64,000 bases of DNA, from positions 26,108,187 to 26,172,186 of the forward strand of contig OZ024858.1 in the NCBI GenBank assembly GCA_964017155.1, written 5' to 3'. Shown here one piece after another: positions 651 through 64,000 of the stretch (its first letter is position 1; each line of letters starts with the position of its first letter). A program made the translations under genes and the position numbers. Origin of the DNA: Oasisia sp. SBJ-2009. Taxonomy: Eukaryota > Annelida > Polychaeta > Sabellida > Siboglinidae. Under the pieces are notes generated by a model. It was not told the origin of the DNA, searched no databases, and was given only the letters and a program-made list of their open reading frames with translations.

Positions 651-740
651 ACTCTACAGGAAGCCCTGGAGCAAGAGCACAGTCGCTTGCGGCAGGCGGA
701 GCGGACGCTGTCTCAGCAGCAGCAGTGGTACGAGGAACAG
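651..740 (+). CDS. CEP112: CEP112-like coding exon (antepenultimate)
   Basis: Ninety bases, 30 codons, open in the frame that continues into the next two exons. The acceptor is a GT-rich tract ending TTGCTGACAG; the donor is GAACAG followed by GTAGGA. It encodes a charged, Gln-rich helix (QEALEQEHSRLRQAERTLSQ) typical of coiled coil. The exon is bounded on both sides by tandem arrays: a 12-bp array upstream and a 62-bp array that starts at its donor. Confidence 0.8.
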
Positions 741-3700
741 GTAGGACCTCACAGCCTTCACTTTCACGTCTCATCACTCATAAACTAATTGCCTAGGAGC
801 AGGTAGGACCTCACAGCCTTCACTTTCACTTCTCATCACTCATAAATAAACTAATTGCCTAGGAGCAGGTAGGACCTCACAGCCTTCACTTTCACTTCTC
901 ATCACTCATAAACTAATTGCCTAGGAGCAGGTAGGACCTCACAGCCTTCACTTTCACTTCTCATCACTCATAAACTAATTGCCTAGGAGCAGGTAGGACC
1001 TCACAGCCTTCACTTTCACTTCTCATCACTCATAAACTAATTGCCTAGGAGCAGGTAGGACCTCACAGCCTTCACTTTCACATATAATATTTAATGTGGA
1101 TGTTGTAAAGTTTCTGGAGAATGTGGCCATGTCCCATGTACATATACTATGCATTTTTCTAGTGTGAAAAATCGCTATCAATGAATGAAATCAAATTTTT
1201 TTGCATACATTCACATGTATAATTTTGTATAAATTTATATGTATTTAAAATGTTGATAGCAGTAAAAAGCAAGCACTTCTGATGCCTGTAGTTCTCATGC
1301 TAACAAGTTAGACGATCTGTTTCAATATAGGTATATTTAGTAGCCTGATAGATGGCGCCACTTGACCAGGTGGAGTGTTAGTGTATTTTCCCTTCTCCAG
1401 GTGGCGTGTCTGTGTTGTGTCTTTCCCGTGCTATTGTTTGTCTCTGCGTATGTGTCAGCAGCTGATGTTTGTCAGCCAGTTTCATCAGCAGTGGAGTAGC
1501 TGGCTTCCAGACATGCAGTTAATTCCACATCATTGAGACCAACTAACATTTTATTCCAATTCCACCCACACTACACAAGTTTCGATACTGATTCCTGTCT
1601 GTGTCAGTATTAGGTGCCAGTGGTGTCAATGTTAGGTGTTAGTGGTGTCAGTATTAGGTGTCAGTGGTGTTAATGTTAGGTGTTAGTGGTGTCAGTATTA
1701 GGTGTCAGTGGTGTCAGTGTTAGGTGTTAGTGTTGTCAGTATTAGGTGTCAGTGGTGTTAATGTTAGGTGTTAGTGGTCTCAGTATTAGGTGCCAGTGGT
1801 GTCAGTGTTAGGTGTTAGTGGTGTCAGTATTAGGTGTCAGTGGTGTTAATGTTAGGTGTTAGTGGTCTCAGTATTAGGTGCCAGTGGTGTCAGTGTTAGG
1901 TGTTAGTGGTGTCAGTATTAGGTGTCAGTGGTGTTAATGTTAGGTGTTAGTGGTCTCAGTATTAGGTGCCAGTTGTGTCAGTGTTAGGTGTTAGTGGTGT
2001 CAGTATTAGGTGTCAGTGGTGTTAAAGTTAGGTGTTAGTGGTCTCAGTATTAGGTGTCAGTGGTGTAAGTGTTAGGTGTTAGTGCTGTCAATTTTAGGTG
2101 TCAGTGGTGTCAGTGTTAGATGTTAGTGATGTGAGTATTAGGTGTCAGTGGTGTCAGTGTTAGGTGTTAGTGGTGTTAATATTAGGTGTTAGTGGTCTCA
2201 GTATTAGGTGTCAGTGGTGTTAATGTTAGGTGTTAGTGGTCTCAGTATTAGGTGTCAGTGGTGTCAGTGTTAGGTGTTAGTGGTGTCAGTATTAGGTGCC
2301 AGTGGTGTTAGGTGTTAGTGGTGTCAGTATTATGTGTCAGTGGTGTCAGTGTTAGGTGTTAGTGGTGTCAGTATTAGGTGTCAGTGTTAGGTGTTATTGG
2401 TGTCAGTATTAGGTGTCAGTGGTGTTAATGTTAGGTGTTAGTGGTGTCAGTATTAGGTGCCACTAGTGTCAATGTTAGGTGTTAGTGGTGTCAGTATTAG
2501 GTGTCAGTAGTGTCCGTTTTAGGTGACAGTGTTTATGCATTGGTGTTAATTATTAGTGTTAGTGATGTCAGTGTTGGGTGATAGTGTTAGGTGTCAGAGG
2601 TGTTAGGTATTGGTGATGTCAGACGTTCAGTGTTAGGTGTCAGTGTTACGAGATAGTGTTATTCATTATTAGTGTTATGTCACAGTGATGTTATATTGTT
2701 AATGTTTGGTGTTACTGTTTGCTCACAGTAGTGTCAGTGTTGGGTGACAGTGTTGGGTGTCAGGGGTGTTAGGTGTTGGTGGTGTCAGACGTTCAGTATT
2801 AGGTGACAGTGTTAAGGTGATAGTGTTATGTCACAGTGATGTTATATTCTTAATGTTTGGTGTTAGTGTTTGGTGACACTGGTGTCAGTGTTGGGTGACA
2901 GTGTTGGGTGACGGTGGCTCAAGGTCTCAGTCAAGCCCCCAGTGTCCTCACCAGGCACCAGGTCTGATTCAATCTGTCATGACACGCTGTCAGCCTGTCA
3001 CTTCAAAGACATGTCACTTACCTTCAAAGAGCAAAGTCAACTTGATGGACTGTCATCATCAGTGGTGACATTTTAAAACAAGCTTTGTTACATAGACAGG
3101 GACAAATTGCTCGAACTCAATGTCAGTTGTCTCATGTATTGGCATCATTGTCACCATTGATGTCATCACAATAATTGTCATCATAACATTGTTATCAATT
3201 ATTGTGTATTGTAATATCATTAGTCAACACATTAGCAACCACATAATGTCACACAATATTGCACCTGATTTCTAAAACTGTCCAATTAATTAATTGATTA
3301 ATTTATAAATTATATGTAATCAAAATATATGTACATAACATATTTGTGGTAATAATACCATTATTAAAATTCATTGTTAGTCAGTTGTTATTAGTTGGCA
3401 TATTTTGACAGAAACATATGTTTATATAAACAATAAAAATGTATGTAGGCAACATGTGTGTGGCTTCATTCGATAGAAATGTCCGTTGTGCTTAAAATAA
3501 TCACTGAGAGACCAGGGGAACAGGAATGATGTTATTGCAAAAATAAGACATGTCAAAATGACACTGTGACCTGGATGTTTGACAGAATATTGACCTGATT
3601 AGTTTAGGTAATTGTATTATTTCATAAAACATCACAAATATAAATGCACATAATTAAAAAAATCAGCGACCCAATTTGTTCTGTACACATCTCAAAGAGG

Positions 3701-6700: not shown

Positions 6701-9700
6701 GCAGTAAACCTTGCACTAATTTTCTGAGCACACCGTGACAAGCAGATAGAAATATACAGCAACTGAGGGAACTACAGGTACAGACACTGGTCAGTAACAA
6801 TACAGGCAACATAAAAAACAACAGATGTTTCGACTGATTGCAATTAACATCAGCCTTATTGTAGAGTCAACTTTAAAGGGCCTCTCCAAAGGGCGGTTTG
6901 TTTGTTCAGTTCAATGACCTCAGTCCTGATTACATCGCAACAAATAACCCATCAAAACATTCTCAATATTTATCACGGTTAGGTTTTTATCCAGTGGCTT
7001 AAAGACATTGCTTGTTAATCAGCGCCTGCCTGCCTGCTTTGATCTTCTAACTGTGTATTCTATCAGTGTTTGTCAAGTCAATTTCGATTCACTCGTGTGG
7101 AATGAAAGACATTTATCCTCTGGGTAGCAAAGCCAGCTGCGGCACTTAAGGAATAATTCTGTTTCCTTCGTTAAATCAAACATTGGCCCCACAAACGTTG
7201 TTCGTTATTATCTTGCAACATTGCCTGGACTCCAAAATGGCTACAATACATAGTTCCTATTGGGTGCAATTATAAACAAAGTTAATCAAATTAGGAACAG
7301 ATAAATACATTGGTGACAAATTGCTTTGATGATATTACCTTTTGTCTGGAAAAATTAACTGCTACTTTTTGTCAGTGACGCATCCGATGATCGATATTAG
7401 TCTGTGTACTTCTGTAATGGTGGGTGACATCCTTTGATCATTGCTGTTTTTCCTAAATGAAATATTGTGAATCGGTTTTGTGGAAATAGAAATGTGTCGG
7501 GCATTTTGAAAAATTACAACAAGGAAGCATTTTTAAACAGTAATTTACAGGCAATATGGTTTAAGGCCGTTTCTAATGGAATATGCCCATCTTGTCGCAT
7601 CTCTTGCGCCAGGCGTACGACATGTCTCCGCCAGAGTAACATATGCTGTGTGGCGCTGACGGTTTAATCAGCACTCGCAGTGTCTTTGAAGTCGCCATCC
7701 TTCAGTTTCCCTAGCCACAAAGCCAGTGTCTTAATTAATTGTTAAGGAAACTATTGATCAATTTGCATGGCTGTCTCACATTAGTGCCTTTGATGTAGGC
7801 TTCTGTGCAGTTTTATGTCAGTTGTAAATGTTCGTATGAGTCGTTGTGACATAAGGTATGTTGTATAGCGGCCCTGGATACACCTATTGTTGGAGCAGTC
7901 CGCCAAGGAGATTCTGCCATCAAGGAGACTATGTCTCTACGTTACTGGAACTGGTGCTAAATTCAGAACAATAGATCAGACAGGGTCTGAGCCAAAAGTT
8001 GAGGCAATACTGTCCAGATATGATCTCATAAACATGGTCCGCCAGTCTTGGATCTGTGTTTCTTCTTCCATATACTGGACTGGGCCCTTTCCGGGTGTTA
8101 AAAGTTCAATCAAAGCTTGTGTGCTTCGGGGGTGGGGGGGGGGGGGGTGTACATGCTCTCTTAAAAGTTAATATAAACAAATTATATTAACTAATTAAAA
8201 TTAAAACATTAATAAATTTATTCTATGGACCTATGGTGATTAAAAAAATGTATTATTATGATGTACATAGTCTTATGAAGAAATTAAAGCAGATGTTGAG
8301 GCCCGAAGTTTGTCTCACATAGGTGGACTTTGTTTGGTAAATAAAGTGAGGCCTTTAGACCTTCACTGTCTCCGTACCTTTTCTCTCACTCTCCCCTAAC
8401 CCTGCTAACCAGCTTCATATCTCAGTCAGGGTGTTCCTCTCCTTCTCCCACTGTCACCATCAGTGTACAGTTGTCAGGTAAGAACACTGACAGTAACTAC
8501 CATGATGTGTTAGAACAATGTCAGGTTTGGTCATCAACTAAATTAAATCGCCAGCTGAAATGTCAGATGACAAGGGTTGGCCCTGCATTGATTAGATGAC
8601 TGGGAAGTCGGTTCAGAAAGTCTTGTCATTGCTATGTTGGAACCACTGTGTTATAGTCACTTGGTCACCTGGTCAGCTGGTCACCTGGTCACATGATCAC
8701 CTGGTCACCTGGCCACCTGGCCACCTGGCCACATGGTCAATTTTGTTTGACTGTTTGACTCTGCTCAATTCTGGTTGACTGTTTGACTCTGCTCAATTCT
8801 GGTTGACTGTTTGACTCTGCTCAATTGTGGCTGACTGTTTGACTCTGCTCGACTGTGGTTGACTGTTTGACTGCTCGACTGTGGTTGACTGTTTGACTCT
8901 GCTTGACTCTGGTTGACTGTTTGACTCTGCTCGACTCTGGTTGACTGTTTGACTCTGCTCAACTCTGGTTGACTGTTTGACTCTGCTCGACTCTAGTTGA
9001 CTGTTTGACTGCTCGACTCTGGTTGACCGTTTGACTCTGGTTGACTGTTTGACTCTGCTCAATTCTGGTTGACTGTTTGACTCTGCTCGATTCTGGTTGA
9101 CTGTTTGACTCTGCTCGATTCTGGTTGACTGTTTGACTCTGCTCAATTCTGGTTGACTGTTGGACTCTGCTCAATTCTGGTTGACTGTTGGACTCTGCTC
9201 GACTCTGCTCGACTCTGCTCGACTCTGGTTAACTGTTTGACTCTGCTCGACTCTGGTTGACTGTTTGACTCTGCTCGACTCTGGTTGACTGTTTGACTCT
9301 GCTCGACTCTGGTTGACTGTTTGACTCTGCTCGACTCTGGTTGACTGTTTGACTCTGCTCGACTCTGGTTGACTGTTTGACTCTGCTCGACTCTGGTTGA
9401 CTGTTTGACTCTGCTTAACTATGGTTGACTGTTTGACTCTGCTCAAATCTGGTTGACTGTTTGACTGCTCAAATCTGGTTGACTGTTTGACTCTGCTTAA
9501 CTCTGGTTGACTGTTTGACTCTGCTCGATTCTGGTTGACTGTTTGACTCTGCTTGTCTCTGGTTGACTGTTTGACTCTGCTCGACTGAGGTTGACTGTTT
9601 GACTCTGCTCGACTCTGGTTGACTGTTTGACTCTGCTTGACTCTGGCTGACTGTTTGATTCTGCTTGACTGTTTGACTCTGCTTGACTCTACTTGACTGT

Positions 9701-11253
9701 TTGACTCTGCTTGACTCTGCTTGACTCTGCTTGACTCTGCTTGACTCTGCTTGACTCTGCTTGACTCTGCTTGACTCTGCTTGACTCTGCTTGATTGTTT
9801 GACTCTGCTCAACTCTGGTTGACTGTTTGACTCTGCTCGACTCCGTTTGACAGGTTGACTCAGACTAAGTGATGTTTCTGTCTGTTACAGTTGGTTGCTC
9901 TGCGAGGTCAGTATGAAGACAAGATCCGCGGTCTCATTCCCGCGACCATCAGACAGGTGAGACAGACACTAGTACTGGACCCTCTCACTTGGCACGTCCT
10001 CTTTCTGGCAGTAGAGCCCAATGCTGGCCCCAGATGGTTGCCAAGTGTCAAAATGCATTTATGATTACTGTTGTATAAATACATGTGTTAGCAGTGGTTT
10101 AGTCATTACTGTTTTAGCGAGAACAATTCATTGTTGTATGCAGTGGCATCACCTGTTGAACGGAATTTATGTCAGTACATAGAAACTACTACATCGTACA
10201 TACATATGCTACTGGGGACATCAGAACTGGGTATTGGTTGTTGTTTTGGAAGCCATTTTGAATTTGTACAAATTGCAAGTTTATAAGACTACACCCTGAC
10301 TGGTGCAGTGCTCTTGTCTTGCTCTTGCCCTGCTCATGCAGTGCTCTTGCTCTTGCCCTGCTCATGGACCAGTGGAACATGTAAAACTGTCTGTTGGTTT
10401 ACTTCAAGACAATGTTTATTTTTAATCTGTAATCGTTTGTCAGTATAATATACTGGTCAATTATGCATGCTTGCCTTTGTGTAGACGCATGCACCTGTGC
10501 GTGGGTCTTTTTCTTCCAGCTTCACTTCCTGTGACTTTGCATGTGATTTGGTTTCGTAAATTTTCTTCCAGCTCTGCTTTCTGCGACTTCATTTCTGTAA
10601 CTTTCTCTTGCGACTTTACTTCCTGTAATTTTATTACCCGTTATTTTTCCTGTGCATTAATTTTCTGCTAATCTGATTCCTATGTGTGTTTCCTTTAACT
10701 GTATTTGTTTATATTAATAAAGTTTATTCACTTCACTGGCAGCCCAAGCGGCTGAATAGTACAATAAGAACATTATGGTTGATAACAAATTCATTAATGT
10801 ATAGTAAAACTATTTAAGAAAGCATAACAATATCTGAAAGTGTTACTAATTAGAATGTCTAGTAAAATTAAAGCGATAAAAATGTTGGATAGGTAAACTG
10901 TAAATTTTCTCTAATATGAATATATACATTTAGGTAAATTAAAGCATAAAAAAACAAAAATATTCAGCAAACTATATTATTATAAATGACTAAAAAATTA
11001 CACCTCGACTAAAAAATTACATGACTAAAAAATACCACTCAATAAAATAAAATAAATTGTGTTCCCGCAGGAGTTGGAGGACACGATCTCGTCCCTCAAG
11101 TCCCAGGTGAGCTCCCTCCAACAGCACGCTGTCATCCTGCAGGAGGAGCTCGACCTCGTCCGCCACTCCACCTACGCCAACAACCACCTGGTGGCCGCCA
11201 GCAGCACTACAAGCACCTTGATCGGCTCGTCGCTGTCACTGAAGACCAGCTGA
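651..11253 (+). CDS. CEP112: CEP112-like centrosomal coiled-coil protein, 3' end (gene-level entry)
   Basis: Partial gene; the 5' part lies before the window. Coding exons are join(651..740, 9891..9956, 11071..11253), all junctions phase 0, giving 112 residues and a TGA stop. The peptide is a Glu/Gln/Leu-rich coiled coil, then a short linker with GLIPATIRQ, then a second helix beginning ELEDTISSLKSQV and containing LQEELDLV. That last block is what I remember as the conserved C-terminus of CEP112 (CCDC46), a centrosomal coiled-coil protein. After it comes a Ser/Thr-rich tail of about 30 residues that I do not recognise. Adjacency to Axin supports the call, because human CEP112 neighbours AXIN2. 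The gene converges on Axin. Its introns carry minisatellites touching the splice sites. The alternative is another centrosomal coiled-coil protein. Confidence 0.8.
741..1085 (+). repeat. 62-bp minisatellite duplicating the CEP112 splice donor
   Basis: The repeat begins exactly at the donor of the exon ending at 740. The word GTAGGACCTCACAGCC recurs at 741, 803, 869, 931, 993 and 1055. Spacing is 62 bases except one 66-base unit with a 4-base insertion. Each later copy is preceded by GAGCAG, closely matching the true exon end GAACAG. The array therefore offers six donor-like sites. Using a later one would read into TAA and TAG codons within the unit. Confidence 0.95.
1086..1600. other. CEP112 intron, unannotated stretch
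   Basis: AT-rich intronic sequence between two minisatellites. I see no coding exon, RNA gene or recognisable transposon. Confidence 0.6.
1600..2935. repeat. 22-bp minisatellite, GTGTCAGTATTAGGTGTCAGTG type
   Basis: About 60 units of roughly 22 bases, many arranged as alternating 44-base pairs (a GTGTCAGTATTAGG half and a GTGTTAATGTTAGG half). Units degrade after about 2500. It lies inside a CEP112 intron, away from any exon junction I can identify. Confidence 0.9.
2936..4265. other. CEP112 intron, unannotated stretch
   Basis: AT-rich sequence with TGTCA-rich decay of the preceding array at its start. Short open frames near 3956-4265 have no recognisable protein features. Nothing else is supported. 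Confidence 0.5.
4268..4725. repeat. 15-bp minisatellite, GTCACACAACATTTG type
   Basis: About 30 units of 15 bases, varying at CACA/CATG/CACG and CATTTGG/CAATTGG. It is open in several frames (pentapeptide such as GHTTF) because 15 is divisible by 3; the open frames are artefacts of periodicity. Confidence 0.92.
5050..5390 (+). mobile_element. tRNA-derived SINE, nearly intact
   Basis: The head resembles a tRNA. An A-box-like GTGGCTCAGGGGTAGAGC lies near 5059-5076, and a B box GGTTCGAATCC at 5102-5112. The body follows (CACTCTACATTGCTCCAGTT and AAGCGCTTTGAGCGGTCC), then a GCGCTATATAAGAAC stretch and a TTTAC tail at about 5367-5386. Two diverged copies lie near 45 kb. It sits within a CEP112 intron. 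Confidence 0.88.
5991..6052. repeat. CA-rich alternating purine-pyrimidine tract
   Basis: Imperfect CA/GCA dinucleotide tract ending in a run of CACACACACACA. Ordinary microsatellite in a CEP112 intron. Confidence 0.8.
6053..8062. other. CEP112 intron, unannotated stretch with TCF-like words
   Basis: No exon or transposon recognised. Several TCF/LEF-type words occur, including CCTTTGATCA at 7431-7440 and GCTTTGATCTTC near 7037. See the findings. Confidence 0.4.
8063..8175 (+). repeat. Dispersed G-run repeat, copy 1
   Basis: Shares about 110 bases with 47088-47192: CATATACTGGACTGGGCCC, then TTCCGGG, GTTAAAAGT, a CGAAGCTTG-like word, a long G run and ATGCTCTCTTAAAA. Copies are in the same orientation. 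Class unknown; no terminal repeats seen. Confidence 0.8.
8656..8745. repeat. 10-bp repeat, TGGTCACCTG type
   Basis: About eight units of TGGTCACCTG, TGGTCACATG and TGGCCACCTG. It directly precedes the larger 28-bp array. Confidence 0.85.
8745..9850. repeat. 28-bp minisatellite, TTGACTGTTTGACTCTGCTC type
   Basis: About 38 units built from TTGACTGTTTGACTCTGCTC plus GACTCTGG, with a pure TTGACTCTGC run near 9680-9790. It ends about 30 bases before the acceptor of the CEP112 exon at 9891. Each unit combines a TTGAC branch-point-like word with a pyrimidine-rich CTCTGCTC. Long minus-strand frames here are repeat artefacts. Confidence 0.93.
9891..9956 (+). CDS. CEP112: CEP112-like coding exon (penultimate)
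   Basis: Sixty-six bases, 22 codons, phase 0 at both ends. The acceptor is TTTCTGTCTGTTACAG and the donor AGACAG followed by GTGAGA. It encodes LVALRGQYEDKIRG and then LIPATIRQ, the linker before the conserved C-terminal helix. A 1.1-kb minisatellite ends about 30 bases before the acceptor. Confidence 0.8.
9957..11070. other. CEP112 last intron
   Basis: AT-rich with no further exon. A CTCTTGC/CTGCTC-rich patch lies near 10300-10370. The 3' end is an A-rich AATAAA-repeat stretch just before the acceptor. Confidence 0.6.
11071..11253 (+). CDS. CEP112: CEP112-like terminal coding exon with stop
   Basis: The acceptor is TGTGTTCCCGCAG; the reading frame runs phase 0 to a TGA at 11251-11253. The first 30 residues (ELEDTISSLKSQVSSLQ, then LQEELDLV) match the CEP112 C-terminal helix. 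The remaining Ser/Thr-rich residues look unstructured and may be lineage-specific. The exon is GC-rich at third codon positions compared with the flanking AT-rich intron, which supports real coding. Confidence 0.82.
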   Translation, partial: ELEDTISSLKSQVSSLQQHAVILQEELDLVRHSTYANNHLVAASSTTSTLIGSSLSLKTS

Positions 11254-55395: not shown

Positions 55396-55500
55396 ATGCA
55401 CAATAAACGGAATATATTTTATTTTATTCGAGTAAGAGAATATATGAGAAAATCTACTTATAGGCTTGGTTTTAAAATTATAAGAACTGTCGTTTGTGAG
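55396..55500 (+). CDS. DCAF17: DCAF17 coding exon 1
   Basis: 35 codons from ATG (AAAATGC context, A at -3) to the donor TGTGAG followed by GTAGGA, phase 0. It encodes a basic N-terminus, then YRLGFKIIRTVVCE, the counterpart of the human NLGILRALVCQE segment. The start is chosen as the only ATG giving a length close to the human exon; a 5'UTR exon is not excluded. Confidence 0.78.
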
Positions 55501-58500
55501 GTAGGAAATAATACTAAAATATAGAAACATATCATATTATCGCTCGCATTCGTCGATGTGCTGGTATTTACTTTAGCCTTTAGGAGGCTAGGGGACAGGC
55601 TGACAAAGCACTGTTGATTTTCCCATTGTCGGCCATGTTAGCGTTTTGTCAGATCATGAGGAAACTGTACATGAGAGAAAAAATTGAATTCTACACAGTC
55701 ACTGCAGTCATGTCACTGATTCGCTGATAAAATTTCGTAAAAATCACATATCTCGGATAATGCACGCATGTGTTATGTGTACTGCAGGTCTATATATTGA
55801 TTTTTTTGAATACAGCATTATCTGATAAAAAGGTATCCTTATTTAATTTGTTATTTCAAATTTGGCTTGAGAACCAATCAGTGTCTCTACCCTATTCTGG
55901 GATAAGGCCGCCCTGTCGATTACATTGGCTGCCCATAAATATACCAGGCGGTGTTGAGGGACTGAAAAGTGCTGCCACCTTATGGAGTCTGATTAATCAA
56001 GGCTAGTGTATAAGGTGTAGTTGCTATGTTGCCTTAGCCAACTCTCGTTCGGCTGCATAGCTTTGCTGAGAAGATAGTCTGGTAAAACATACGATTTGCT
56101 TATTTGGTGGTGTCATTGTTTAAAGTGGTCAGACAGCATCATTAGTGATGCTGTTTGGGATTAATTTATAAGTTTACGTGTATAATATAATAAAACATGT
56201 ATAGCATCTAGGTTTCATTATCAAAAACATACATACCCACTGTACCATGTATGCTTTTGATAACAAAACTAAGGTATATATATATATTTTATACAAAAAA
56301 GTAGAACAACATTTAATACAAAACGAAAAATGGCAATTTTTGTGCATGGCATGTTTCAGTGTAAATTTAATTCTGAATAGTTTTATATTATTGTAGTATT
56401 AGAGCTCTGATAAAGAGTATCCTAATTTTTTTAATTGGCCTAAGCCAATCAGCGTCTCGACTGTATTCTGGCATAATGCCGCCCTGGTGGTAACAAACAC
56501 AGAGCATAAGCTTCCCAGGCCATGGCGAGCGGCTCAAAAGTGCTGCCACCTCATGGTGGATAATCGAGGCTACATGCTGCTGGTGATGGCAAATGTGTGT
56601 CCTGTGCTATGCCTGTGTTTTACCTAGTTTATTTTGTATCCATTTTACAAAATTCTTATTGAAATGGTTGCGCATGCACATACATCTGTAATTAGTTGAT
56701 TTGCAACATAAGACGCCAGTTGGTTTCTAGGGCAGTGAGTTGTGAAAACATTACAGCTAAAACATGTCATCATCAAATGATAATAACAAAATAACAATTG
56801 CATAACATGCACATCATGCAGATGTGTGTAAGTTGTTGTTGCTAAGTTTTTATTACTAACAGTCTAGGCTGTAAAAATATTGCTTCATCAGTTTGACTTG
56901 TTGATCTTATCTTTCTTTCACGGTGAAGCTGTTTTTGTACATACAGAAAGACGTACCATTCCAGAAGGTTTGGGAGAAGCATTCAAATCAGCCAATAACA
57001 TATGAGGGGTAAGTTGTAGTGTTTGTTAAGTCAATAGTTCCACCGGTTGCTGTAAAGAGCTACATCAACCACAATCTAAAGACCATTCTAGTGGGCTAGG
57101 TATGTCATGAATGTGAACTAATTTTGACCAATTGATATATTTACCCATCAATATGTGGGCTATGGCCCTTTCAAATGGAACATTGTTTTATCATGGATAC
57201 ACTCTTTTCGGCAAACATCTGATGATAGATTAGTGCATGATGCAAATATAGTGTGGTTCTTTTGTGTCTGACATTAACAGAATGACATAATCTGATGTAT
57301 GAAAGCATCACATATGTTGCAGAAGTATAATAATTATTCACTATCTCAACCAATATAGACAGCTGGTCTTGTTTTATATGAACTATGTAACAAAGTTTCT
57401 TGTAGATTAATTTAACCACGACTCATAAATGAATATTAATCAGTATGGCTACACTGTGTTAAAGTTTATTTTCTGTTGTAGCGGACAGTTATATTTCAGT
57501 AACTACACAAAATGTTATACGTGGTAAGTGTTGATTTGAATCAGTTTAATTAATTTTTCAAAATATACTTTGTCTATATAGCAAGACACATTTCTGCTGA
57601 TATTTTTAATTCAATTTAAAGTCAATACATACATTAATGTTATTTATTGGGCATTATTGGTATAAAAGTTCTATGCATATTAAACTTACCTCATTCTACT
57701 TATAAGTTTGGACTGGTTAGAGTGCCATGTCAACTCTACTCATCTTATACTTGTAGTTTTGGACTGGGTGGAGTGCCGTGTCAACTCTACTCATCTTATA
57801 CTTGTAGTTTTGGACTGGGTGGAGTGCCGTGTCAACTCTACTCATCTTATACTTGTAGTTTTGGACCGGGTGGAGTGCCGTGTCAACTCTACTCATCTTA
57901 TACTTGTAGTTTTGGACCGGGTGGAGTGCCATGTCAACTCTACTCATCTTATACTTGTAGTTTTGGACCGGGTGGAGTGCCATGTCAAATCTACTCATCT
58001 TATACTTGTAGTTTTGGACGGGGTGGAGTGCCATGTCAACTCTACTCATCTTATACTTGTAGTTTTGGACCGGGTGGAGTGCCATGTCAACTCTACTCAT
58101 CTTATACTTGTAGTTTTGGACCGGGTGGAGTGCCATGTCAACTCTACTCATCTTATACTTGTAGTTTTGGACCGGGTGGAGTGCCATGTCAACTCTACTC
58201 ATCTTATACTTGTAGTTTTGGACCGGGTGGAGTGCCATGTCAACTCTACTCATCTTATACTTGTAGTTTTGGACCGGGTGGAGTGCCATGTCAACTCTAC
58301 TCATCTTATACTTGTAGTTTTGGACCGGGTGGAGTGCCATGTCAACTCTACTCATCTTATACTTGTAGTTTTGGACCGGGTGGAGTGCCATGTCAACTCT
58401 ACTCATCTTATACTTGTAGTTTTGGACCGGGTGGAGTGCCATGTCAACTCTACTCATCTTATACTTGTAGTTTTGGACCGGGTGGAGTGCCGTGTCAACT

Positions 58501-61500
58501 CTACTCATCTTATACTTGTAGTTTTGGACCGGGTGGAGTGCCGTGTCAACTCTACTCATCTTATACTTGTAGTTTTGGACCGGGTGGAGTGCCGTGTCAA
58601 CTCTACTCATCTTATACTTGTAGTTTTTGACCGGGTGGAGTGCCATGTCAACTCTACTCATCTTATACTTGTAGTTTTGGACCGGGTGGAGTGCCATGTC
58701 AACTCTACTCATCTTATACTTGTAGTTTTGGACCGAGTGGAGTGCCATGTCAACTCTACTCACTGACAGCTAATCCCACAACAGAAAAGATTGAAGACTG
58801 TCTCGTCTGTTACGGATCCTTGGTGAGTCAAATCTTGATGACAGTTTCTACATTTTTATATACATGGTTCTACTGCTGTGTGGTTTTAATTAAGAATAAA
58901 GTGTGTATGTTGCCTTCATATTCTCAGTCTTTAAAAATAATTCTCATATGCATTTTCAATCGCTAATGGAAAACTTATTAGTTACAAATTATCACATTTT
59001 ATATTTTATAAATAATCAGTATGAAAAATATTGCATTGCATTAAATGTATTTTCTGACTTACCCAGTAGATATAATTCATGTTTACAGAAAGGTTATTTT
59101 AGTAATGTTATGGGGCGTACAGTGAAGCCTCATAGGTGGAAGGTGTAAACATGGATTGAATAAAATATTTCTAGATATCACACCATTTTAGATGTGACAT
59201 TTTGTGTATTTTACAAAGTTTATGTTTACAGGAAAATCTTTATGTAATCAGAGACTATTTTCTATATTCGTATGATCAGATACAGAATGTTTCAGGATAA
59301 AATTCCAATAGAACACAAAGGTTACCGACCCAGTCTTCTTGCTCTCAAGAACAGCTGGTTGATGCGATATGACTTGGAGACAGGTGCAATGTTGGAACAA
59401 GTTTACCTCTCACCAGCACTGAAGTTTAAGTAAGTTATACAACTGCATTCAACAATGCAGCTCTAAATGCAAAACTTGTATAAAAATGAACCACAGATGT
59501 CATAATTTCCAGAATCAGCGACATGCAACATTGTTACAGTTGTATCTGTCTTAGTTATAAACAGATAATTCAGTTGCAGAAAATTTAGTTTTCTTTGCAG
59601 ATGTGATATTGAACTGAGAATGAACTGAGATTGTAGATGTATCATAGTTAATTTGTGGTGATCATTTCTGTATTTCAGGCATTTAGCATGGGACACGGCC
59701 ATGGAATATTTTGTTGCTCGAACAGTGCAGATGGATGTACGAGGCCAGTCACATCAGGTGTGTTTCACTTTCACTTTCAAAAACAAAAAGTACATCTTCT
59801 GACTGACCTCTCTCACTGTAGCACATGTTGAAGCCATGAAACGTTACAATGTTTATGTATCGATGCTGAATGTTTTGTACCATTTGCTAAATATTGCTAT
59901 CATGACTGTCTCATATCAAATACCAAGTTATCTCATCTGGGGAAGGACACTTTTTATAGTTCTGTTACAAATATTTTGCCAGTAACCATGGGAAAGGAAA
60001 TGGAAACATTTGACGTGAACTTAGCAGTTCGTCTGTTACTTGTAGACCCCAAGAACCCATTGCACAAACTCACCAACTCTCACGGCGGGCGGGTTATTGT
60101 GAGAACATCTGCGTTGATCAGCCCTAAGCAAGTGGCTAATACACACATTTACTGTATTCCATAGAGGCTATCCAAATCAAGAAAATGATGTTTTATGAGT
60201 GAAGTTTTCCGTGCAGGAAAACAAAACGCTGGTGGTGCTGGCTGTCTTCAGTGTGTTCCCACTCCAGTTTGTGGCCATGCTGGAGGTGTCCACTCATGTA
60301 AGTGAACTTGTTGGGAAGTAGTGCACTTATAAAGTTATAGAATGTTACTAATCTGGGCTATGAATACATTTAATTAACGTAACAAGACAAATTATCTGAC
60401 GTAATGTTGAACTAAGTAACTACGTATTCAGAGATTGTATGCTTATGGACTTGCTATAAATTTACAAAAAAGTTATTTATGCATTGTTCGTTTTGAAATA
60501 CCAACCGTTTTATGTGTCCGAATATATACTATACAATTACTTAGTGACTATGTTTTTTGAACAACACAAACAATTACTTTTTGCATTGTGTGTGTTCAGT
60601 CAGTTGGTTCAGATGCTTAAATATATGCCGTCATTACAGCATGTTGTGTAGTCGTATGAATTGTGTATTCAAAAGTAACAGTTGTGTTAGTTTTGAGTCT
60701 ACATTTTGACGTATTCAGTGGTATAAATGTGTACGATAGTTGGACAGGTAGATGTTTTAATTGGGCTTTATTATCAGTATTTAGAAAAAAATCAATATTT
60801 CCTTAAACGTCTTTTACTTGAAACTTTAGCAATATGACAGCTGGTTCTTATGTGTTTGGTTAAGATATCTGTATAATGTCTGTGTAGGTGTTTGATTGAG
60901 ACATCTGTAGCTGTGTGACATCTGTGTGTTTCGGTGTTTGGTTGATAAATCTGTAGCTGTGTAACATCTGTGTGTTCAGGTGTTTGATCGAGACATCTGT
61001 AGCTGTGTAACATCTGTGTGTTCAGGTGTTTGATCGAGACATCTGTAGCTGTGTGACATCTGTGTGTTCAGGTGTTTGATCGAGACATCTGTAGCTGTGT
61101 AACATCTGTGTGTTCAGGTGTTTGATCGAGACATCTGTAGCTGTGTGACATCTGTGTGTTCAGGTGTTTGATCGAGACATCTGTAGCTGTGTGACATCTG
61201 TGTGTTCAGATGTTTGATCGAGACATCTGTAGCTGTATGACATCTGTGTGTTCAGGTGTCTGGTCAAGACATCTGTAACTGTGTGACATCTGTGTGTCCA
61301 GATGTTTGGTCGAGACATCTGTAGCTGTGTGACATCTGTGTGTTTGGGTGTTTGGTCGAGACATCTGTAGCTGTGTGACATCTGTGTGTTCAGGTGTTTG
61401 GTCGAGACATCTGTATCTGCGTGACATCTGTGTGTTCAGGTGTTTGGTCGAGACATCTGTAGCTATGTGACATCTGTGTGTTCAGGTGTTTGGTCAAGAC

Positions 61501-64000
61501 ATCTGTAGCTATGTGACATCTGTGTGTTCAGGTGTTTGGTCGAGACATCTGTATCTGTGTGACATCTGTGTGTTCAGGTGTTTGATCGAGACATCTGTAG
61601 CTGTGTGACATCTGTGTGTCCAGATGTTTGGTCGAGACATCTGTAGCTGTGTGACATCTGTGTGTTCGGGTGTTTGGTCGAGACATCTGTAGCTGTGTGA
61701 CATCTGTGTGTTCAGGTGTTTGGTCGAGACATCTGTAGCTATGTAACATCTGTGTGTTCAGGTGTTTGATCGAGACATCTGTAGCTGTGTGACATCTGTG
61801 TGTCCAGATGTTTGGTCGAGACATCTGTAGCTGTGTGACATCTGTGTGTTCGGGTGTTTGGTCGAGACATCTGTAGCTGTGTGACATCTGTGTGTTCAGG
61901 TGTTTGGTCGAGACATCTGTAGCTGTGTGACATCTGTGTGTTCGGGTGTTTGGTCGAGACATCTGTAGCTGTGTGACATCTGTGTGTTCAGGTGTTTGGT
62001 CGAGACATCTGTAGCTGTGTGACATCTGTGTGTTCAAGTGTTTGGTCAAGACATCTGTAGCTGTGTGACATCTGTGTGTTCAAGTGTTTGGTCGAGACAT
62101 CTGTATCTGCGTGGCATCTGTGTGTTCAGGTGTTTGGTCGAGACATCTGTAGCTATGTGACATCTGTGTGTTCAGGTGTTTGGTCGAGACATCTGTAGCT
62201 ATGTGACATATGTGTGTTCAGGTGTTTGATCGAGACATCTGTAACTGTGTGACATCTGTGTGTTCAGGTGTTTGGTCAAGACATCTGTAGCTGTGTGACA
62301 TCTGTGTGTCCAGGTGTTTGGTCGAGACATCTGTATCTGTGTGACATCTGTGTGTTCAGATGTTTGGTCGAGACATCTGTATCTGTGTGACATCTGTGTG
62401 TTCAGGTGTTTGGTCGAGACATCTGTAGCTGTGTGACATCTGTGTGTTCAGGTGTTTGGTCGAGACATCTGTAGCTGTGTGACATCTGTATGTTCAGGTG
62501 TTTGGTCGAGACATCTGTAGCTGTGTGACATCTGTGTGTTCAGGTGTTTGGTCGAGACATCTGTAGCTGTATGACATCTGTGTGTTCAGGTGTTTGGTCG
62601 AGACATCTGTAGCTGTGTGACATCTGTGTGTTCAGGTGTTTGATCGAGACATCTGTAGCTGTGTGACATCTGTGTGTTCAGGTGTTTGGTCGAGACATCT
62701 GTAGCTGTGTGACATCTGTGTGTTCGGGTGTTTGGTCGAGACATCTGTATCTGCGTGGCATCTGTGTGTTCAGGTGTTTGGTCGAGACATCTGTAGCTGT
62801 GTGACATCTGTGTGTCCAGATGTTTGGTCGAGACATCTGTAGCTGTGTGACATCTGTGTGTTCAGGTGTTTGGTCGAGACATCTGTAGCTGTGTGACATC
62901 TGTGTGTTCAAGTGTTTGGTCAAGACATCTGTAGCTGTGTGACATCTGTGTGTTCAAGTGTTTGGTCGAGACATCTGTATCTGCGTGGCATCTGTGTGTT
63001 CAGGTGTTTGGTCGAGACATCTGTAGCTATGTGACATCTGTGTGTTCAGGTGTTTGGTCGAGACATCTGTAGCTATGTGACATATGTGTGTTCAGGTGTT
63101 TGATCGAGACATCTGTAACTGTGTGACATCTGTGTGTTCAGGTGTTTGGTCAAGACATCTGTAGCTGTGTGACATCTGTGTGTCCAGGTGTTTGGTCGAG
63201 ACATCTGTATCTGTGTGACATCTGTGTGTTCAGATGTTTGGTCGAGACATCTGTATCTGTGTGACATCTGTGTGTTCAGGTGTTTGGTCGAGACATCTGT
63301 AGCTGTGTGACATCTGTGTGTTCAGGTGTTTGGTCGAGACATCTGTAGCTGTGTGACATCTGTATGTTCAGGTGTTTGGTCGAGACATCTGTAGCTGTGT
63401 GACATCTGTGTGTTCAGGTGTTTGGTCGAGACATCTGTAGCTGTATGACATCTGTGTGTTCAGGTGTTTGGTCAAGACATCTGTAGCTGTATGACATCTG
63501 TGTGTTCAGGTGTTTGGTCGAGACATTTGTAGCTGTATGACATCTGTGTGTTCAGGTGTTTGGTCGAGACATCTGTAGCTGTGTGACATCTGTGTGTTCA
63601 GGTGTTTGGTCGAGACATCTGTAGCTGTGTGACATCTGTGTGTTCAGGTGTTTGGTCGAGACATCTGTAGCTGTATGATGTCAGATGGTCTACTTCTTGT
63701 TATGCATCAAAACAGCTTCATCAGATTCTACAGTTTTGACCACATCTTGAAGCAGGTAAAACTCTGACTGATTTGATGATAAGGATAAAAATAATTTCTA
63801 CTGCTTTATCATATACACTAAAGGGAGTTTCATTCTATCTTTTAATTATGCTATATTTTATATAAAAAAATTGCTTCATTTTTATCAATAAATACTTAAG
63901 ATATATTGACAAATATAGTATAATAAATAATATAATAATACTTCATTTTTACACTCATTTCCAGAGTATCACTGACAGGATAGTACTCGGGTCAACAGTG
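55396..64000 (+). CDS. DCAF17: DCAF17-like DDB1-CUL4-associated factor, 5' part (gene-level entry)
   Basis: Coding exons: join(55396..55500, 56947..57008, 57482..57523, 58726..58822, 59296..59429, 59679..59757, 60217..60297, 63648..63755, 63965..64000), 744 nt, 248 codons, truncated by the window end. All junctions are GT-AG and phase-consistent. The protein aligns from memory with human DCAF17 (C2orf37): KVWEKHSNQPITYE, LYFSNYTKCY, EKIEDCLV, SLLALKNSWLMRYDLETG, KHLAWDTAMEY, VLAVFSVFPLQFVAMLEV and LLLVMHQNSFIRFYSFDHIL. Human DCAF17 has about 520 residues and is a CUL4-DDB1 ubiquitin ligase receptor-type protein, nucleolar and membrane-associated. Divergent from Axin. Two exons have acceptors embedded in minisatellites. 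Confidence 0.92.
55820..56012 (+). repeat. Dispersed repeat, copy 1
   Basis: Shares with 56406-56580: a GATAAA..GTATCCT start, CCAATCAG, GCCGCCCTG, AAAAGTGCTGCCACC and ATGG followed by an AATC.AGGCTA end. Same orientation, moderately diverged. Class unknown. Confidence 0.8.
56406..56580 (+). repeat. Dispersed repeat, copy 2
   Basis: Second copy: GATAAAGAGTATCCTAAT, GCCAATCAGCGTCTCGACTG, AATGCCGCCCTGG, AAAAGTGCTGCCACCTCATG and AATCGAGGCTAC. Confidence 0.8.
56947..57008 (+). CDS. DCAF17: DCAF17 coding exon 2
   Basis: 62 nt. The acceptor is TTTTTGTACATACAG and the donor GAGGG followed by GTAAGT. It encodes KDVPFQKVWEKHSNQPITYE, matching human STKFKNVWTTHSRSPIAYE. Confidence 0.9.
57482..57523 (+). 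CDS. DCAF17: DCAF17 coding exon 3 (42 nt)
   Basis: Very short exon. The acceptor is TTTCTGTTGTAG and the donor CGTG followed by GTAAGT. It encodes GQLYFSNYTKCYT, matching human GRIYFDNYRRCVS. Confidence 0.9.
57695..58765 (+). repeat. 51-bp minisatellite duplicating the acceptor and start of DCAF17 exon 4
   Basis: Twenty units of exactly 51 bases plus one degenerate leading unit. Each runs CTCATCTTATACTTGTAG, then TTTTGGACCGGGTGGAGTGC, CATGTCAACTCTA. The last unit supplies the exon 4 acceptor (TTATACTTGTAG at 58725) and its first 37 coding bases. The unit length is 17 codons, so all copies keep the DCAF17 frame, encoding a GVPCQLYSSYTCSFGPG repeat. One unit carries a G-to-T change creating an in-frame TGA at 58628-58630. 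Long frames on both strands here are periodicity artefacts. Confidence 0.97.
58726..58822 (+). CDS. DCAF17: DCAF17 coding exon 4 (acceptor inside the 51-bp array)
   Basis: 97 nt. With this acceptor the split codon from exon 3 (TG|T) is completed and the frame runs FGPSGVPCQLYSLTA, then EKIEDCLVCYGSL, matching human PRKLYEMP...SEKIEDALLW. The donor is TCCTTG followed by GTGAGT. Identical acceptors one unit upstream (58675) would add 17 in-frame residues; those at or above 58624 would meet the TGA. Confidence 0.82.
59296..59429 (+). CDS. DCAF17: DCAF17 coding exon 5
   Basis: 134 nt. The acceptor is AGAATGTTTCAG; the earlier AG in GATACAG would shift the frame into TAA. The donor is TTTAA followed by GTAAGT. 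It encodes YRPSLLALKNSWLMRYDLET, then LEQVYLSPALKF, matching human KSSLIALTAHNWLLRI..TTGKILEKIYLASYCKF. Confidence 0.93.
59679..59757 (+). CDS. DCAF17: DCAF17 coding exon 6
   Basis: 79 nt. The acceptor is CTGTATTTCAG and the donor CATCAG followed by GTGTGT. It encodes HLAWDTAMEYFVARTVQ, matching human YLSWDTPQEVIAVKS. Confidence 0.92.
60217..60297 (+). CDS. DCAF17: DCAF17 coding exon 7
   Basis: 81 nt, phase 0 at both ends. The acceptor is TTTTCCGTGCAG and the donor ACTCAT followed by GTAAGT. It encodes LVVLAVFSVFPLQFVAMLEV, matching human LLYLAVFRVLPFSLVGILEI. Confidence 0.92.
60851..63680 (+). repeat. 46-bp minisatellite duplicating the acceptor and start of DCAF17 exon 8
   Basis: About 61 units of 46 bases: GTGTTTGGTCGAGACATCTG, TAGCTGTGTGACATCTG, TGTGTTCAG. 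The last unit flows into exon 8: TGTGTGTTCAG is its acceptor, and GTGTTTGGTCGAGACATCTG then TAGCTGT its first 27 coding bases. Earlier units are therefore copies of an intron-exon junction. 46 is not divisible by 3, so an upstream acceptor would reach a stop (CTG TAG) in the next unit. Minus-strand frames with a 46-residue period are artefacts. A 19-unit block is duplicated internally. Confidence 0.97.
63648..63755 (+). CDS. DCAF17: DCAF17 coding exon 8 (acceptor inside the 46-bp array)
   Basis: 108 nt, phase 0 at both ends. The acceptor is the final TGTGTGTTCAG of the array; the donor is AAGCAG followed by GTAAAA. It encodes VFGRDICSCMMSDGLLLVMH, then NSFIRFYSFDHILKQ, matching human IFGNVTDATLSHGILIVMYSSGLVRLYSFQTIAEQ, so VFGRDICSC is genuinely part of the protein and not repeat spill-over. 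Confidence 0.88.
63965..64000 (+). CDS. DCAF17: DCAF17 coding exon 9, start only
   Basis: The acceptor is ACACTCATTTCCAG; 12 codons (SITDRIVLGSTV) are open up to the window end, in the position of human FMQQKLDLGCAC. Truncated by the window. Confidence 0.75.

Follow-up and report, generated by a model that had tools for sequence, protein, structure and literature searches.

A 46-bp minisatellite that leads into the eighth coding exon found of DCAF17 in the tubeworm Oasisia sp. is, in our estimation (about three chances in four), the intron-exon junction itself amplified in tandem, with splicing using only the copy beside the unique rest of the exon. The structure is real. It represents a known kind of junction minisatellite, is large and occurs twice within the gene; it is probably old and seems to be frequent in the lineage. 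As far as we have found, what is new is the lineage (annelid, vestimentiferan) and the frequency of junction arrays. In what follows, the window is the whole stretch of 64,000 nucleotides that was analysed, decoys are the array copies of a splice site other than the authentic one, and k numbers the copies outwards from the exon.

DCAF17 gene structure

Seven exons ending with 63648-63755, bordered by AG and GT, join in phase into a single open reading frame of 201 aa (Table 1). This product matches the Pfam family DCAF17 (PF15802) at 4.6e-60 over residues 4-201, which bears out the gene and the junction named by a previous sequence-only reading of this DNA; the peptide VFGRDICSC occupies residues 166-174. 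The last DCAF17 exon was found by tblastn about 7 kb past the window end and is 96% identical to Ridgeia. Ridgeia residues 240-431, which come after exon 63648-63755, were found neither in the flank nor among the eight whole-genome matches, all near the window; 5,000 consecutive N in the downstream flank, in the stretch where these residues are expected, may hide them. DCAF17 as seen here consists of eight exons through 63755 and the last exon, so that this copy of the gene may be incomplete. The segment 63965-64000 was considered as the next exon and dropped, since the Ridgeia protein continues with other residues; the stop counts given below are unaffected.

Table 1. Positions of the exons, arrays and array copies described in the window, followed by the junction arrays at kinesin exons
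Feature	Position	Strand	Basis or remark
Exon TLQEALEQEHSRLRQAERTLSQQQQWYEEQ of upstream gene, donor GTAGGA	651-740	+	No Pfam family above cut-off
62 bp x 5.6 array, spans donor after 740	733-1081	+	TRF; exon part 8 nt, less certain
First DCAF17 coding exon found	55396-55500	+	tblastn with Ridgeia protein
DCAF17 exon	56947-57008	+	Phase and splice sites; Ridgeia protein
DCAF17 exon, upstream partner of 51-bp array	57482-57523	+	Phase and splice sites
51-bp unit x 20.7 (14 nt intron end + 37 nt exon start)	57707-58762	+	TRF; phased units
Start of decoy k=2 of 51-bp array, in-frame TGA	58624-58641	+	Phased units
DCAF17 exon, acceptor inside 51-bp array	58726-58822	+	Phase and splice sites; Ridgeia protein
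DCAF17 exon	59296-59429	+	Open frame, AG/GT borders
DCAF17 exon	59679-59757	+	Open frame, AG/GT borders
DCAF17 exon preceding 46-bp array, donor GTAAGT	60217-60297	+	Phase, splice sites; Ridgeia protein
Outermost, intron-side copy of 46-bp array: degenerate, shorter, out of register	60851-60887	+	Read in the sequence
46-bp minisatellite, enters exon by 31 nt	60886-63678	+	TRF and phased units
True acceptor CATCTGTGTGTTCAG, letters identical in many decoys	63633-63647	+	Phased units
True DCAF17 exon (eighth coding exon found), 108 nt, donor GTAAAA	63648-63755	+	Phase, splice sites; Pfam; Ridgeia protein
Kinesin acceptor array	C1:56285302		127 bp
Kinesin acceptor array	C13:27821948		48 bp x 31
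Kinesin acceptor array	C10:19242553		Exon part 14/21 bases in six copies checked
Kinesin donor array	C11:8593862		33 bp x 46
Kinesin donor array	C12:30622246		85 bp x 4.5

The 46-bp array

TRF reports 60.7 copies of the 46-bp unit, with 94% matches and 0% indels. When phased to the acceptor at 63648, the units stay in register from k=0 (the exon itself) to k=60, that is 61 copies, 60 of which are intronic and upstream of the true exon, in agreement with the some 60 decoy acceptors claimed beforehand. Each unit is composed of 15 nt of intron end (CATCTGTGTGTTCAG) followed by 31 nt of exon start; the earlier description as acceptor plus exon start is therefore retained, and its exon share of 27 coding bases is replaced by 31 nt. 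The AG is intact in 50 of the 60 decoys, and the 11-mer TGTGTGTTCAG has 42 exact occurrences within 60700-63760, the true site counted. A 92-base probe made of two units gave at least 31 matches in the genome (764,102,534 bases in 33 contigs), and all the listed ones fell within the array.

Two traits of the array bear on its growth. The 13 consecutive units k=5 to 17 are found again, unchanged, 19 units away, and the divergence of decoys from the exon copy grows with distance (Spearman 0.35, p 0.008); together they are what unequal exchange would leave. Because of this block duplication the losses of AG (10/60) are not independent events, and we draw from them no claim of selection for broken decoys. 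Over codons 1-9, the distinct changes in 58 copies were seven nonsynonymous and two synonymous, to be read against a yardstick in which 17 of the 81 possible changes, or 9 of the 27 transitions, are synonymous. On these small numbers the decoys do not look kept: they are without sign of coding constraint and drift freely. The last two decoys and the exon fold with a z of -2.84, and 2 of 200 shuffles did as well.

As the sequence-only reading had stated, use of a decoy ends in a stop. Every one of the 60 leads to one after 3 to 40 aa (39 at 22 aa, 10 at 17, nine at 40 and two at 3). Recursive splicing at these decoys is unlikely: a zero-length recursive site would be an acceptor followed by GTRAG, and most of them read AG|GTGTTT. 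Weak donor use at the AG|GTGTTT decoys may nevertheless occur, because one true DCAF17 donor reads CAG|GTGTGT.

The 51-bp array

The window contains two junction arrays beyond the one of the earlier reading, one at a second DCAF17 acceptor (57707-58762) and one in the upstream gene (733-1081). In the former, the AG in register and the same 14-nt acceptor are present in 19 of the 20 decoys, the outermost (k=20) being degenerate. The 51-bp unit amounts to 17 codons without stop, and decoy k=1 keeps the reading frame without a stop, so that its use would add 17 aa; no other decoy there gives an open frame, since the TGA in k=2 closes that copy and 17 further AG-bearing decoys. Distinct changes among these decoys, again in small numbers, were four nonsynonymous (one a stop) and one synonymous. 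At one position where all the decoys checked (19) have G, like Ridgeia and Lamellibrachia, the exon copy (58726-58762) alone reads S (FGPSG). The far decoys k=18 and 19 (57757-57844) carry an FGL variant, which is the exon form in Ridgeia.

DCAF17 in related tubeworms

The identity of DCAF17 is 92-95% to Ridgeia piscesae (95% being the local value) and 78% to 84% to Lamellibrachia P0123, the query in these comparisons including 12 residues from the dropped candidate exon 63965-64000. Together with the Axin relatives described further on, these identities assign the window to the lophotrochozoans and to a vestimentiferan close to Ridgeia; amphioxus, which the literature on similar arrays had suggested as host, was rejected on these grounds. 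The proposal that VFGRDICSC belongs to DCAF17 in relatives held when checked: it is present in P0123, P0124 and P0001, and Ridgeia P0122 has VFCRDICSC.

The Lamellibrachia gene models (L. satsuma) contain one extra unit at each of two DCAF17 junctions, of 17 and 14 aa and in frame: P0001 reads STH-VFGRDICSCMTCVQ-VFGRDICSCMMSDG and P0123 reads FGPGGVPCQLYSPSTCS-FGPGGVPCQLYSL. P0123 has a plain join at the junction where P0001 has its extra unit, and P0001 does not reach the extra-unit junction of P0123. Ridgeia P0122 has plain joins at both array junctions, and P0124 (454 aa, contig of 1654 nt) has a plain STHVFGRDICSCMMSDG at the 63648 junction, with no extra copy. P0124 presumably comes from spliced RNA, because its contig spans exons that are kilobases apart in the present genome. 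The extra copies in P0001 and P0123 could reflect real decoy use rather than a gene-prediction fault; they also warn that gene models in this lineage can carry extra, perhaps false, repeats.

The lineage of Lamellibrachia (dated for L. luymesi) separated from that of the other tubeworms sampled some 65.1 million years ago (PMC9921365). As the extra copies sit at the same two junctions, both DCAF17 arrays are probably old, as old as that split, or else would have arisen twice.

Frequency of junction arrays at kinesin exons

We surveyed kinesin exons, for which the presence of arrays was no criterion of choice (first 20 of the 53 listed regions plus the 30 best loci). Among 127 exon matches, 69 were testable, in 34 merged segments of 169,874 bp altogether; the remaining 58 either were outside the fetched sequence or lay less than 200 nt from a segment end. 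An array counted as a contact if it lay no more than 25 nt from the match and had, by TRF, a period of at least 10 and at least 2.5 copies. The segments hold 55 arrays, covering 13.0% of the 169,874 bp, with nine contacts at eight exons. Seven of these eight were read (C9:19120660 being left out), and arrays derived from the junction itself were found at 5 of the 69 exons, four of them plain and one (C10:19242553) with a degenerate exon part, whereas the arrays at C1:40494580 and C10:19239185 only abut their exons. A further array, on the donor side of the C13 exon, is a probable junction derivative, with 18 to 23 of 29 bases in five copies.

This exon (C13:27821948-27822151, minus strand) is flanked on both sides, by the acceptor array of 48 bp x 31 and by the donor-side array of 36 bp; read by eye, the 48-bp unit makes 16 open codons. 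The small kinesin match C2:46932173-46932283 lies within an open frame of 3042 aa, which may be an array that preserves the frame.

The five junction arrays compare with 1.1 expected from a one-unit seed (P 0.0025) and with 2.8 from a two-unit seed (P 0.13), and whole arrays dropped at random would cover 17.9 of 138 boundaries, above the number seen. Since the expectation depends on the seed in this way, junctions need not be favoured as birthplaces of arrays, and a high birth rate of minisatellites may suffice; we accordingly dropped enrichment at junctions as not needed.

Comparison with known systems

The sequence-only reading knew of no described example of this scale, which does not stand: amphioxus has structures of the same kind, and the human ABCA7 array reaches a larger scale. 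Mirages is the name given to exon-intron boundaries that are duplicated in tandem, in the manner of a minisatellite, in the amphioxus genes for Adh3, globins (BflGb6, BflGb9), troponin C and PGBD5 (PMC3087553, PMC3902484). According to the accessible portions of these reports, they occur on the acceptor or donor side and bear decoy AG or GT in many copies, and Adh3 data and globin RT-PCR suggested that splicing is plain and undisturbed. The arrays described here share with them a unit holding both sides of the junction (15+31 nt, 14+37 nt, and 8 nt of exon in the donor array) and an authentic junction in the outermost exon-side copy, the exons being in phase through 58726 and 63648. The 13-unit block duplication inside the 46-bp array, seen in a single assembly, fits a mirage-like instability of length. 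The mirages were reported from cephalochordates and the present host is a lophotrochozoan, taxon not being a structural property; here two arrays lie in one gene of an annelid and several kinesin exons are concerned too. Copy numbers are 61 and 21 here versus 6 and 3 for two BflGb6 haplotypes, as far as the reports were available.

The human ABCA7 intron 18 VNTR likewise has a unit carrying a splice site in many copies, and the effect of its length on splicing has been measured: alleles of about 12 to 427 units track exon 19 skipping and, inversely, expression, with one-unit retention at about 2% (PMC5954066, in the part of the article available). It differs from the 46-bp array by lying on the donor side, by larger copy numbers and by being polymorphic in people; its unit begins at the exon 18 donor GT, and the part available names no exon sequence in it. 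In human genes of segmental duplications, exon-intron boundaries with tandem repeats can show altered splicing or give rise to new introns (PMC2812944); these repeats are boundary minisatellites too, but in recent primate paralogs and with units averaging 30 bp repeated 4 times.

In the titles and abstract beginnings covered by our literature search, most subscription papers being outside its scope, no annelid report of junction arrays was found, and the portion seen of the Ridgeia genome paper makes no mention of minisatellite. The gain of introns by tandem genomic duplication reportedly goes under the name of AGGT model. There the duplication carries the splice signals (PMC4974935, available part), whereas in the present case the intron already existed and grew, with no new intron shown. 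With the present arrays, a structure that we found described in lancelets and in human genes is now seen in an annelid lineage as well, and it seems to be common there.

Proposed origin and alternative explanations

We propose that the 46-bp array likely began when a stretch spanning the acceptor was duplicated in tandem, in a tubeworm genome rich in minisatellites, and that its copies would have spread by unequal exchange or slippage, as the 13-unit block repeated exactly 19 units off suggests. The last acceptor would win by exon definition, because it alone is followed by a donor at the distance of a short exon (108 nt). Nonsense-mediated decay would clear transcripts spliced to a decoy, in which case the array would be close to neutral. 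Use of the last copy at 63648 is thus probable from the sequence, the decoys being ignored or their transcripts lost. The array offers a natural test of splice-site choice: as the 60 decoys depart from the true acceptor mainly in the sequence downstream, the choice would have to rest on position and exon context.

Neutrality cannot be taken for granted in an array like this, given the one-unit retention of about 2% and the skipping that rises with length in the available ABCA7 data. Repeat number could then set DCAF17 output, the share of transcripts taking a decoy or skipping the exon growing with length. Many decoy acceptors are letter-identical to the authentic acceptor, a stop follows each of the 60, two arrays occur within this one gene, and a parallel is offered by ABCA7, whose VNTR length correlates with skipping of exon 19 and negatively with expression (PMC5954066). 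We nevertheless judge this tuning unlikely, as the 46-bp decoys drift freely and the mirages were reported, in the accessible text, without disturbance of splicing.

Real alternative acceptors that add a repeated peptide, chiefly at the 51-bp array and with a doubled FGPGGVPCQLYS as the expected product, appear to us more doubtful still. The open, in-frame decoy k=1 there and the single extra in-frame units of 17 and 14 aa in the Lamellibrachia models speak for them; however, the TGA of k=2 shuts that decoy together with 17 more of the same array that bear an AG, none of the 60 46-bp decoys is open, and joins are plain in Ridgeia P0122 at both junctions and in P0124 at 63648. Finally, an assembly or annotation artefact, or a dead DCAF17 copy, is the least credible explanation: long arrays are prone to mis-assembly, the Lamellibrachia extra copies come from gene models and the middle of DCAF17 after exon 63648-63755 is unseen, but the array contains unit variants and a repeated 13-unit block, the same junctions are concerned in another genus and the kinesin arrays are alike, while the exons seen are open and 92-95% identical to Ridgeia (96% for the last one) and the N run accounts, at least in place, for the unseen part.

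A broader reading goes further than the amplified junction that we prefer, and we offer it as a speculation with rather low expectations. Vestimentiferan tubeworms would be a second animal lineage with splice-junction minisatellites throughout the genome (at about one in fourteen exons of the kinesin sample), both DCAF17 arrays would have been kept for about 65 million years, the spliceosome would routinely pick the authentic site among dozens, and array length would act as an unstable dial on output.

Other features of the window

The 62-bp array provides five decoy donors (802, 868, 930, 992 and 1054), each of which would add 15 aa and then a stop. It belongs to an upstream plus-strand gene (exon 651-740) that may be CEP162-like; a Pfam search with its product gave no family above its cut-off. 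Two long arrays, 8747-9861 and 84-637, stop 29 and 13 nt short of exons of this gene, not entering them. The 30 kb upstream of the window (C5:26078187-26108186) hold about 20 minisatellites, likely in introns of the same gene, and several of their units contain splice-like AG or GT motifs.

For a survey of the window, 12 arrays were hand-picked from 47 TRF rows, short rows and overlapping periods being left out. Three of the 12 cross a junction, at 3 of 21 exons, and three others are 13 to 37 nt away from an exon; all 12 are more than 40 nt from the nine exon cores of Axin. This gene occupies 17958-42288 on the minus strand, and nemerteans, Owenia and brachiopods are near the top of its relatives among the 120 listed of 1595 matches. 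In a tree of 33 rows, 32 of them hand-chosen from the listed proteins, the window Axin is paired with the first of the listed matches (support 100/98) and stands beside Owenia (89/89), with Branchiostoma far off.
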